Of a stretch of 64,000 bases of DNA, positions 37,161-39,998 are shown piece after piece. The DNA is from Rhodococcus yunnanensis NBRC 103083 (lineage in GTDB: Bacteria > Actinomycetota > Actinomycetes > Mycobacteriales > Mycobacteriaceae): assembly GCF_001895005.1 (NCBI RefSeq), contig NZ_BCXH01000017.1, positions 1-64,000 of the forward strand, in the 5' to 3' direction. Position 1 is the stretch's first letter. Each line of letters starts with the position of its first letter. A program made the translations under genes and the position numbers. The notes beneath the pieces are model-generated. The model saw nothing but the letters and a program-made list of their open reading frames with translations, did no database searches and was not told the DNA's origin.

Positions 37161-37769
37161 CTATATGTCGGTGGGTACGTCGAACGGCAGCGCATGACCC
37201 AGCACGGCGAACGGCCGTCGATCGCCCGAGAAGGTGAAGTTCCGCAACACGTCCTCGAAGCCGAGTCGTCGGTACAGACGCCACGCACGGTTGCCTTCGT
37301 CCGCGACCTCGGGCGTCGAGAGCAATACGGTGCGCTCGTCGCGCCCGTGGAGGAGTCGGCGCGTCAGTGCGCTGCCGAGTCCGTGTCCCTGCGCATCCGG
37401 TTTGACGTGTAATTCGGTCAGTTCGAAGTAGTCGGACAGCACCTCGTCGACGTGCTCGGCGCTGCATCCGGATCTACGTAGTCCATCGCGAACCTGCTGG
37501 TGCCACCACTGATGTCGTGCTCCGCGGTACCCGTATGCGATGGCAACCATCGGTGCGTCCGAGGTGGGCAGCACGGCTGCCACGCCGCGCCATCCCGGTC
37601 GTGACACGTGTTCGGACCACATGGGTGCGCGATGGTATTCGGTGCCTCGCGGGTAGCCCATGGCCTCGACGTAGATCGCCAGTGCCTCGGGAAGGCGACG
37701 GCGAATTTCCTGGGGGGACAGGTCCACCAGGTAGGGGGTCGTCTCCGCGTCGGTGTCGACTGTTCTCAA
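37161..37769 (-). CDS. GNAT family N-acetyltransferase (Rv2170-like)
   Basis: A 202-residue acetyltransferase. The acetyl-CoA loop appears as VKPDAQGHGLGSALTRRLL, followed by LLSTPEVADEGNRAWRLYRRLGFEDV, the typical C-terminal GNAT strand and helix. The start is TTG at 37769 with AAGGAAAGG upstream. The M. tuberculosis homologue has been reported to acetylate a lysine of isocitrate dehydrogenase, but substrate identity here is unproven. Its promoter region overlaps a perfect LexA box shared with the divergent HEPN gene. Confidence 0.9.
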   Translation of the reverse strand: MRTVDTDAETTPYLVDLSPQEIRRRLPEALAIYVEAMGYPRGTEYHRAPMWSEHVSRPGWRGVAAVLPTSDAPMVAIAYGYRGARHQWWHQQVRDGLRRSGCSAEHVDEVLSDYFELTELHVKPDAQGHGLGSALTRRLLHGRDERTVLLSTPEVADEGNRAWRLYRRLGFEDVLRNFTFSGDRRPFAVLGHALPFDVPTDI

Positions 37770-37776
37770 CCTTTCC

Positions 37777-37807
37777 TTGACTACTTGTCGGTGGGCACAG
37801 CTATATT
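37777..37807 (+). promoter_or_regulatory. Promoter of the HEPN-domain gene
   Basis: TTGACT (37777-37782) and TATATT (37802-37807) are 19 bases apart. The predicted transcription start near 37814 abuts the LexA box at 37815-37830. On the minus strand TATAGC at 37805-37800 may be the -10 of the GNAT gene. Confidence 0.6.
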
Positions 37808-37814
37808 GAATATG

Positions 37815-37830
37815 TCGAACGGATGTTCGA
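37815..37830. promoter_or_regulatory. Perfect LexA (SOS) box
   Basis: TCGAAC-GGAT-GTTCGA is the exact actinobacterial LexA consensus TCGAAC-N4-GTTCGA, palindromic in all 12 positions. It covers the predicted +1 of the HEPN gene and the upstream promoter region of the divergent GNAT gene, so LexA could repress either or both until DNA damage. Confidence 0.88.
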
Positions 37831-37957
37831 TGTCGGTGATCCGGCGATGAGCTCGAGGGAAGCGAGTCTCGCCGGGTTCCGACCTTAGAGCTTCATCATG
37901 GTCCGGGCGTGTCGGAATGTGATCACGTACGGCGTTTCGAACGGGAGGTGTTCGAGT

Positions 37958-38407
37958 ATGGCCACAAAAGTTCTCCATAGCGGTGTACGTCCGCCGGTGT
38001 CGCCTCGTGCCAGGGTGCTCCTGGGTCGAGCCGATGCGTTTCTGTCACGCTCGGTCGGCGCGGCGGACGCAACCGAGCGGTTCCTCGATTGCTACATGGC
38101 CGCGTTGCGCGGTGCGGCTGCTGTTCTCGAAGCGACACCGATATCGCAGTCCCGCGCTCGATCGCGGAGCGCGTGGGTGCTGCTGAGCAAGGCGGCGCCG
38201 GATTTGGACGAGTGGGCGGAGTACTTCGCGGGATTCTCCGCGACTCGCGCGGCGCTGCAGGCAGGATTGTCTCGGTCGATCAGCGAAGGTGATGCGGACG
38301 AGTTCTATCGTGAAGTGGGGCACTTCCTTCATGTCGTGGAGGACCGTATCGGTGCGGATTCTCGGCTGGATCGCTCCGACAGTGCTCGTCGATCGATGAC
38401 TGCGTGA
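37958..38407 (+). CDS. SAV_6107-family HEPN-domain protein under a LexA box
   Basis: A 149-residue all-helical protein that fits the SAV_6107-type HEPN family. The segments VLLGRADAFLSRSV, ERFLDCYMAALRGAAAVLE and WAEYFAGFSATRAALQAG form the bundle. R118-X6-H125 in REVGHFLH matches the HEPN RX4-6H motif that makes the RNase site in active members. The ATG at 37958 follows GGGAGGTG. The 144-base leader starts at a strong promoter overlapped by a perfect SOS box. The gene just precedes the division cluster. RNase activity and a checkpoint role are inference. Confidence 0.86.
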   Translation: MATKVLHSGVRPPVSPRARVLLGRADAFLSRSVGAADATERFLDCYMAALRGAAAVLEATPISQSRARSRSAWVLLSKAAPDLDEWAEYFAGFSATRAALQAGLSRSISEGDADEFYREVGHFLHVVEDRIGADSRLDRSDSARRSMTA

Positions 38408-38623
38408 CGTGCGTCGCCCCCGGGCCGGTCGGTCCGAGGTAGTTCGACATGGTGTTCTGTCCCTCACGCGGCCAAACTTCGAACTTTCTCAGGAACACAT
38501 CGACCGAGTAGGTGGTAAGCAGGCGATTCTGCTCGTATTATTGACAGCAGGTAGCCGCCAAGGTCAGCTTCCCGTCGTTTCGCATCCGAAATGACTTTCA
38601 ATATCTGTGCAGGGGGAGGTACC

Positions 38624-39064
38624 GTGCCACTCTCCGAGCACGAGCAGCGCATGCTCGACCAGATCGAGAGCGCTCTCTACGCCGAGGATCCCAAGTTCGC
38701 TTCTCACGTCCGAAGTGGACGCATGCGTACGGCATCGAGCAAGCGCCGCTTTCAAGCGGCGGCTGTTTTCGTGCTGGGGCTTGTTCTTCTCATTGCCGGG
38801 CTGGCTCTGCCCTTCAAGCCCGGTGGTTTTCCGGTGGTCAGCCTCGTCGGCTTCGTCTTCATGTTCGGTGCGGGTGTTCTCTTCATTCTCGGGGGATCCC
38901 GTAAGGGTGCCCCCGCGGGCAAGGGCGACGCGACAGCCGAAAACGGGTCCGAGCAATCCGGCAGGCCTCGAAGCGGGGGCAACAAGCCGAAGTCCGGCCG
39001 TAAAGGCGGTGGCTTCACATCTCGCATGGAAGATCGATTCCGGCGGCGGTTCGAACAAGAGTGA
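38624..39064 (+). CDS. DUF3040 membrane protein (Rv2169c-like)
   Basis: A 146-residue protein with the DUF3040 opening PLSEHEQRMLDQIESALYAEDPKFA, two membrane helices (AAVFVLGLVLLIAGLALPF and VVSLVGFVFMFGAGVLFILG) and a basic Gly/Lys/Arg-rich tail. The GTG at 38624 has GGGGGAGGT upstream. The family is widespread in Actinobacteria just before mraZ and its function is unknown to me. The 216 bases upstream contain a TTGACA near 38541, a possible -35 without a convincing -10. Confidence 0.9.
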   Translation: MPLSEHEQRMLDQIESALYAEDPKFASHVRSGRMRTASSKRRFQAAAVFVLGLVLLIAGLALPFKPGGFPVVSLVGFVFMFGAGVLFILGGSRKGAPAGKGDATAENGSEQSGRPRSGGNKPKSGRKGGGFTSRMEDRFRRRFEQE

Positions 39065-39504: not shown

Positions 39505-39536
39505 TTGAAGGTGGGTGAAAGTGGGGTAAAGTGGTG
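39505..39536 (+). promoter_or_regulatory. mraZ promoter overlapped by three MraZ boxes
   Basis: TGGGT (39512), TGGGG (39522) and TGGTG (39532) repeat with a period of exactly 10 bases. This is the TGGGN-N5 arrangement bound by MraZ in other bacteria. A promoter TTGAAG (39505-39510), 16-base spacer, TAAAGT (39527-39532) runs through the same bases, so bound MraZ would block RNA polymerase and repress its own operon. Transcription would start near 39539. Confidence 0.75.
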
Positions 39537-39566
39537 GAAGCGATCGAGCGCGAGTGGAGGTGTCGA

Positions 39567-39998
39567 GTGTTCCTCGGTACCTATACGCCCAAGCTCGACG
39601 ACAAGGGGCGGCTGACATTGCCGGCGAAGTTTCGTGAAGCACTCTCGGGAGGTGTGATGGTGAGCAAAGGGCAGGATCACAGCCTCGCTGTCTACACCCG
39701 CGAGGAGTTCGCCGAGAGAGTCAGAAAACTCACCGAGGCATCTCGGTCCAATCCTGTCGCTCGCTCCTACATCCGGCAGTTGGGTGCGGGTACCGATGAG
39801 CAGCAAGTCGACGGCCAAGGGCGGATCACGCTCAGTGGTGAGCATCGGCGTTACGCCAATCTCGAGCGCAACGTCGTCGTCAACGGTTCGATCGAGTTCA
39901 TCGAGATCTGGAACGAGGACGCGTGGACTCGCTACTCCACCGAGAGCGAGCAGAGTTTCTCCGACGCGTTCGACGAGTCCCTCGGAGGAATCTTGTAG
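39567..39998 (+). CDS. mraZ: Transcriptional regulator MraZ
   Basis: A 143-residue protein of two tandem SpoVT/AbrB-type units. The first is [23 protein letters not shown] and the second [19 protein letters not shown], each with the conserved D-GR-T/I motif. MraZ forms a ring that binds TGGGN repeats and represses the division and cell-wall operon. The GTG at 39567 follows GGAGGTGTCGA, and longer in-frame starts would lie within the operator. It opens the dcw cluster. Confidence 0.96.

Follow-up and report, generated by a model that had tools for sequence, protein, structure and literature searches.

A LexA-boxed HEPN_SAV_6107 gene beside mraZ in Rhodococcus yunnanensis and its linkage with translesion polymerase genes in actinobacteria

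The first 64,000 nucleotides of contig NZ_BCXH01000017.1 of Rhodococcus yunnanensis NBRC 103083 (the window) carry a forward-strand gene for a 149-residue, all-helical protein of the HEPN_SAV_6107 family (37958..38407; here the HEPN gene), preceded by a LexA-type SOS box, TCGAACGGATGTTCGA (37815..37830). The half-sites of the box form a perfect palindrome with 0 mismatches to TCGAAC-N4-GTTCGA, and it is the sole exact site of this kind in the 64-kb window, in agreement with the original prediction of an exact LexA palindrome at this place; genome-wide (6.37 Mb) there are 9 exact sites, and 0 for a control pattern read backwards. The box begins about 7 bp 3' of a -10-like TATATT (37802..37807, forward strand), which was recognized from the sequence and is kept in the 30 closest loci of the genus. 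It thus covers the expected +1, where it had been predicted to lie, and this position fits an operator over the transcription start. The promoter had also been called strong. Its two hexamers are present, the -35-like TTGACT (37777..37782, forward strand) being a tentative assignment, but its strength was not borne out: the spacer to TATATT is 19 bp, and TTGACT is replaced (TTCGGC, TTCGGA and similar) in one of two sub-clades of the genus. A consensus promoter scan with spacers of 16 to 18 bp found no promoter there.

A ribosome-binding site, GGAGGT (37944..37949, forward strand), stands ahead of the ATG throughout the 30 closest genus loci, and the sequence leading into the ATG at 37958, GGAGGTGTTCGAGTATG, is the same in 29 of these 30, with GAGAAATG in the other (L013). 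We place the start of the HEPN gene at this ATG because GGAGGT...ATG is conserved in the closest relatives and homologues are also 149 residues long, several of which carry Rhodococcus names. We rejected a structured leader RNA, for which the minimum-energy z was only -1.81 and 10 of 200 shuffles folded equally well or better, as well as a TCGAAC-N7-GTTCGA repeat around the ribosome-binding site, whose TCGAAC half is not retained in all genus loci.

Of 61 near genomes, counting that of the window, 58 have a relative of the HEPN gene, and the box was perfect at all 37 genus loci compared (the 30 closest and 7 more), so that the comparison among relatives called for by the original prediction reveals no loss of the box. 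At the order level, the best site within 450 bp upstream was perfect at 10 of 21 loci, had one mismatch at 1 and had two or more at 10. We also performed a class-wide census of 99 loci, a chosen sample among the matches listed that is mostly one per genus and is made up of 13-kb loci, some shorter; seven of them (L181-L187) come from genomes also used for the near-relative box count. Within 450 bp, 50 of the 99 had a perfect box and 70 a box with at most one mismatch, while random windows from the same loci, which include coding DNA, gave 2 perfect sites and 5 with at most one mismatch out of 1648, and the reversed pattern fell below two mismatches in 0 of the 99 upstream windows. Three loci taken for Streptomyces (L139, L179 and L180) had two or more mismatches in their best site within 450 bp. 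Many misses in the 450-bp search arise because a DUF6504 gene precedes the HEPN gene and the box lies ahead of DUF6504; where this order occurs (23 loci), a search to 1200 bp placed the box ahead of DUF6504 in 22 (21 perfect and 1 with one mismatch). When the search was taken to 900 bp upstream of the HEPN domain, loci outside the taxonomic family of the window had a perfect box in 46 of 59 cases and at most one mismatch in 54, and those of the window's own family (to which L178 was assigned in the counts) in 20 and 32 of 40, respectively, set beside 3 perfect sites and 18 with at most one mismatch among 2246 random windows from the same loci, again including coding DNA.

A TCGAAC-N4-GTTCGA operator that lies at a promoter and is conserved together with the HEPN gene points, on sequence grounds, to membership of this gene in the LexA/SOS regulon. 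The SOS control proposed in the original prediction is strongly backed by this conservation, and further by the reported induction of cg2381, the presumed orthologue in Corynebacterium glutamicum. The orthology is presumed from gene order, because cg2378 (mraZ) and cg2380 (a putative membrane protein) lie in the corresponding arrangement and PF18726, the HEPN_SAV_6107 model, is found in C. glutamicum. PMC5055667 places cg2381 in the C. glutamicum LexA regulon (citing Jochmann et al. 2009) and describes it just as a conserved hypothetical, and ciprofloxacin raises it with an M of 3.86, equal to that of recA.

Elsewhere in the R. yunnanensis genome, the best sites upstream of the lexA, imuA' and recA matches had 1, 1 and 2 mismatches, respectively, and the lexA gene (L253) has two one-mismatch LexA boxes, 420 and 341 bp upstream. 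Other exact boxes lie just upstream of DUF222-type genes (L001, L003, L004, L005, L007, L008 and L009). DUF222 was confirmed by Pfam for 4 of the other 8 exact sites (L003, L004, L007 and L008), and the fragments at L001 and L009 gave no Pfam match. A further perfect box (L002, 1501-1516) falls within the coding frame of a short-chain dehydrogenase, away from any obvious promoter.

The gene divergent from the HEPN gene encodes a GNAT acetyltransferase (37161..37769, reverse strand; PF13508/PF00583), which we do not judge to be part of the system. The next gene downstream encodes a DUF3040/SCO2097-family protein (38624..39064, forward strand, with a probable GTG start at 38624; PF11239, E 7.6e-27, and NF058603, both matched on the longer frame 38591-39061), and beyond it lies mraZ (39531..39998, forward strand; PF02381), the start of the division/cell-wall cluster. 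This arrangement is typical of the own family, in which all 40 loci have a divergent GNAT gene on the opposite strand and a DUF3040 gene downstream of HEPN, and 36 of them have MraZ no more than 3 kb downstream. The original prediction had suggested that the GNAT gene may share the box. A sister genus in the same family (g23, presumably Mycobacterium) argues otherwise: all 13 of its listed genomes lack HEPN and retain GNAT, and at 12 loci, where the DUF3040 motif lies 213-332 bp from GNAT, no box with fewer than two mismatches was found, one locus having two mismatches (a further locus, L239, was left out of the box count as it is cut by a contig end). Because g23 keeps GNAT without HEPN and without the box, the box goes with HEPN and not with GNAT. 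Disruptive changes in cg2380, the likely counterpart of the window DUF3040 gene, occur in two laboratory-evolution studies of C. glutamicum.

The HEPN protein matches PF18726 with 107.6 bits (E 4.9e-31) against a gathering score of 27.2 bits, and its AlphaFold 2 (AF2) model (predicted local distance difference test score, pLDDT, 82.4) has HEPN fold matches and a predicted four-helix HEPN fold, so the description of a 149-residue all-helical HEPN-type protein stands. A Pfam search of the protein found the HEPN domain alone, and a search with the family profile against the sequences of solved structures returned two matches at E of about 0.2, neither of them a relative. In the class, 171 of 246 genomes have PF18726, and almost all of these have a single copy. 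The canonical HEPN RNase motif (Rx4-6H, at the end of helix 3 or the start of the loop that leads to helix 4) corresponds here to R97...Q101-A102-G103 and has no histidine. Of the 99 loci, 88 have Arg at position 97, 93 have Gly at position 103, and 4 have a His anywhere in 98-107, with none at 102-104; in an 87-protein alignment rich in close relatives (A3), a His is found in 98-107 in 10 proteins. (L048 was excluded from alignment A1 on account of an in-frame stop.) The protein agrees in family, fold and absence of the motif with HEPN_SAV_6107 as set out by Anantharaman et al. 2013, whose HEPN-M (SAV_6107) family is listed as "No" for the catalytic motif. Their table gives no partner or context for the family, to which the present analysis adds SOS control and polymerase linkage. 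The protein is predicted to have a HEPN fold and lacks the canonical RNase histidine, and an RNA-cutting RNase role is unlikely.

Outside the own family the gene keeps different company. In 41 of 59 loci HEPN is followed within 3.5 kb on its own strand by genes for DnaE, DnaE2, DinB, ImuA' or ImuB, DUF6504 is directly upstream in 23 of 59, and MraZ is found within 3 kb downstream in 0 of 59, three loci having it at 5-6.5 kb. The polymerase calls of this neighbor census are seed-profile matches whose identities were checked on single examples: ImuA' (NF058630, E 1.1e-51), ImuB (PF00817) and error-prone DnaE (NF004225, over the cut-off) were confirmed by Pfam/NCBIfam, as were DinB, LigA and DUF6504 neighbors by family models. 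The gene caller overlooked HEPN in 40 of the 99 loci, and the counts were made without it; a neighbor seed, CrtO_NAD8, matched unrelated oxidoreductases and was excluded, and LigA falls effectively outside the census. Where the order is DUF6504-HEPN-DnaE, the DnaE next to HEPN was a second, lower-scoring copy in 8 of 8 genomes tested, all of which carry a full-scoring DnaE elsewhere (in one genome in two pieces). ImuA' lies directly downstream of HEPN in 5 of 99 loci (L128, L148, L162, L185 and L187) and not in the window, whose genome has imuA' on another contig than HEPN.

Several further neighbors recur. An uncharacterised S-adenosylmethionine (SAM) methyltransferase gene lies downstream of HEPN in 28 of 99 loci (e.g., L183, 6948-7844), often between HEPN or DnaE and DinB. 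At two order-level loci, L056 and L064, the next gene after HEPN resembles the NAD-dependent DNA ligase LigA (Pfam-confirmed in L056), with boxes of 0 and 1 mismatches, and at L140, L150, L161 and L163 a PAC2-family gene (Pfam-confirmed in L140) follows HEPN, with a perfect box upstream. DUF6504 (e.g., L158, 6975-7346) may be the stand-alone ImuB-C described in PMC12926913, whose W/WW pattern it resembles; a profile comparison of the two was not significant.

Two own-family loci, L197 and L202, keep an order in which a GNAT gene is followed by HEPN-methyltransferase-DinB-DUF3040, and a domain tree places both of them apart from the 39-member clade of the own family to which the window belongs (support 0.995). 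The simplest reading, in which the direction of change is our inference, is that the HEPN-DUF3040-mraZ order of the window is a stripped remnant, the polymerase genes having been lost in its clade. Loss of the polymerase genes, with the SOS-controlled first gene kept, would explain an SOS gene beside mraZ without any role in division.

We favor, with middling confidence, an explanation in which HEPN is a widely kept, LexA-repressed SOS gene whose product is a non-catalytic accessory to damage tolerance, its adjacency to mraZ being a by-product. LexA would repress the HEPN gene in this strain by occupying 37815-37830 across the transcription start; DNA damage would stimulate LexA cleavage through RecA and release the gene; and the product, lacking the canonical RNase histidine, would act without catalytic activity, through binding to nucleic acid or to a partner protein. 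It may then support damage tolerance alongside the SOS-induced error-prone polymerases (DnaE2-type, DinB and ImuA'/ImuB). On this account the polymerase genes of an ancestral operon, HEPN-(DnaE)-methyltransferase-DinB-DUF3040, would have disappeared from between HEPN and DUF3040 in the window's clade. More tentatively, HEPN_SAV_6107 could be an overlooked non-catalytic subunit or regulator of actinobacterial translesion complexes (DnaE2, DinB, ImuA'/ImuB), its RNase-like fold now serving as an adaptor in mutagenesis induced by damage; in the window's clade the gene would have been left alone once its polymerase neighbors were lost. We regard this as possible, well short of probable.

Several observations weigh against an accessory role in damage tolerance. 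Within 900 bp, 8 of the 40 own-family loci and 5 of the 59 outside ones have no site with fewer than two mismatches. No polymerase gene lies within 3.5 kb downstream in 18 of the 59 outside loci (in two of these, L149 and L177, ImuA'-ImuB-DnaE lies a short way upstream in the same orientation), the polymerase linkage is retained in just 2 of 40 own-family loci, and such linkage could reflect shared regulation alone. A second DnaE was found in 11 of 15 HEPN-bearing genomes versus 8 of 10 HEPN-lacking ones, and g23 lacks HEPN yet has lexA in 3 of 3 and a second DnaE in 3 of 3 genomes tested. Judging from the alignment, relatives outside the own family may also have an alternative active site, an R41-x4-H46 pair in helix 2 being common among them; H46 is present in 57 of 99 loci overall, and the window has Tyr46. 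The co-occurrence figures come from 25 chosen genomes in which most of the 15 HEPN-bearing members have no polymerase beside HEPN, two of the 10 HEPN-lacking members are 75 and 80% complete, and one HEPN-bearing member (G299), with two full-scoring DnaE, was scored as without a second lower-scoring copy; lexA is present in 9 of the 10 HEPN-lacking genomes.

The alternative that fares best is that HEPN is a general SOS gene that does something unrelated, such as RNA or nucleotide binding under stress, and shares operons with polymerases only through their common LexA control. We consider this doubtful: several families repeat one gene order, as with DUF6504 directly upstream in 23 of the 59 outside loci, beyond what shared regulation alone would be expected to produce.

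Known SOS division inhibitors include SulA, YneA, SosA and DivS, and like them the HEPN product is a small protein that appears to be under LexA control. The original prediction raised a damage-induced growth checkpoint, and an SOS-induced checkpoint acting on the neighboring division cluster (DUF3040, MraZ, FtsI) would suit the constancy of DUF3040 and MraZ in the own family, as well as the slight fall of mraZ (M -1.13) while cg2381 rose in ciprofloxacin-treated C. glutamicum, according to PMC5055667. The HEPN product nevertheless has a different domain from these inhibitors, with Pfam finding HEPN alone, and outside the own family its neighborhood differs: there translesion polymerase genes accompany it (41 of 59) and mraZ does not (0 of 59). 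PMC5055667 moreover already places the cell division suppressor DivS within the C. glutamicum LexA regulon. The checkpoint proposal is weakened by these results, and we hold it to be improbable.

An equally improbable alternative is that release from LexA turns on a HEPN RNase or growth-arresting toxin that slows growth during DNA repair. It started from an RX6H motif, R118/H125, pointed out in the original prediction. The residues do exist, but they lie within helix 4, away from the place of the HEPN Rx4-6H motif; by helix position the canonical site is the one at R97, where the Arg is present and the His is missing (4 of 99 loci have one in 98-107). The pair is also poorly conserved: R118 is Arg in 59 and H125 His in 12 of the 99 loci, with both in 1, and both occur in 8 proteins of alignment A3. 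Loss of the pair in close relatives had been named in advance as a result that would count against it, and this result was obtained: the two residues are retained together in 10 of 37 genus loci and 2 of 21 near loci outside the genus. We therefore reject an RNase reading based on R118/H125. MNT-HEPN (HepT) toxin-antitoxin systems are of the same fold class, but the window HEPN is without a canonical Rx4-6H, and no MNT or other nucleotidyltransferase gene is among the scanned neighbors (GNAT, DUF3040, MraZ and a CrtO-like oxidoreductase). The "No" entry for the family's motif and a distribution of nearly always one copy in 171 of 246 class genomes, unlike that of mobile toxin modules, likewise speak against a toxin. 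Finally, HEPN does not look like an obligate partner or subunit of DnaE2, since in the 25 chosen genomes a second DnaE is seen both with and without HEPN and neither seems to require the other.

The closest known counterparts of the outside loci are actinobacterial DnaE2 modules (ImuA'-ImuB-DnaE2, and DnaE2B with ImuB-C and PolY). PMC12926913, a 2026 survey of bacterial polymerases, describes such modules with ImuB-C and PolY. The clusters reported here are similar and have HEPN between DUF6504 and DnaE, or before ImuA', although the occurrence of HEPN does not follow that of a second DnaE. The portions of main text available from PMC12926913 and from PMC9380542, a LexA study in S. venezuelae, do not mention HEPN, nor does that of the former mention DUF6504. 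Among the matches listed in a literature search there was no paper linking HEPN_SAV_6107 to polymerases, none on LexA and HEPN for HEPN_SAV_6107 and none on DUF6504. LexA control of the presumed orthologue cg2381 is already published, and the polymerase linkage of HEPN_SAV_6107 is new here.

The picture of how actinobacteria control damage tolerance and damage-induced mutation is incomplete, and the parts list of the mutasome is still growing in 2026, as PMC12926913 illustrates. With a near-perfect SOS box at most loci of the class-wide sample and a recurrent place in translesion clusters, HEPN_SAV_6107 is a direct candidate for a missing component.
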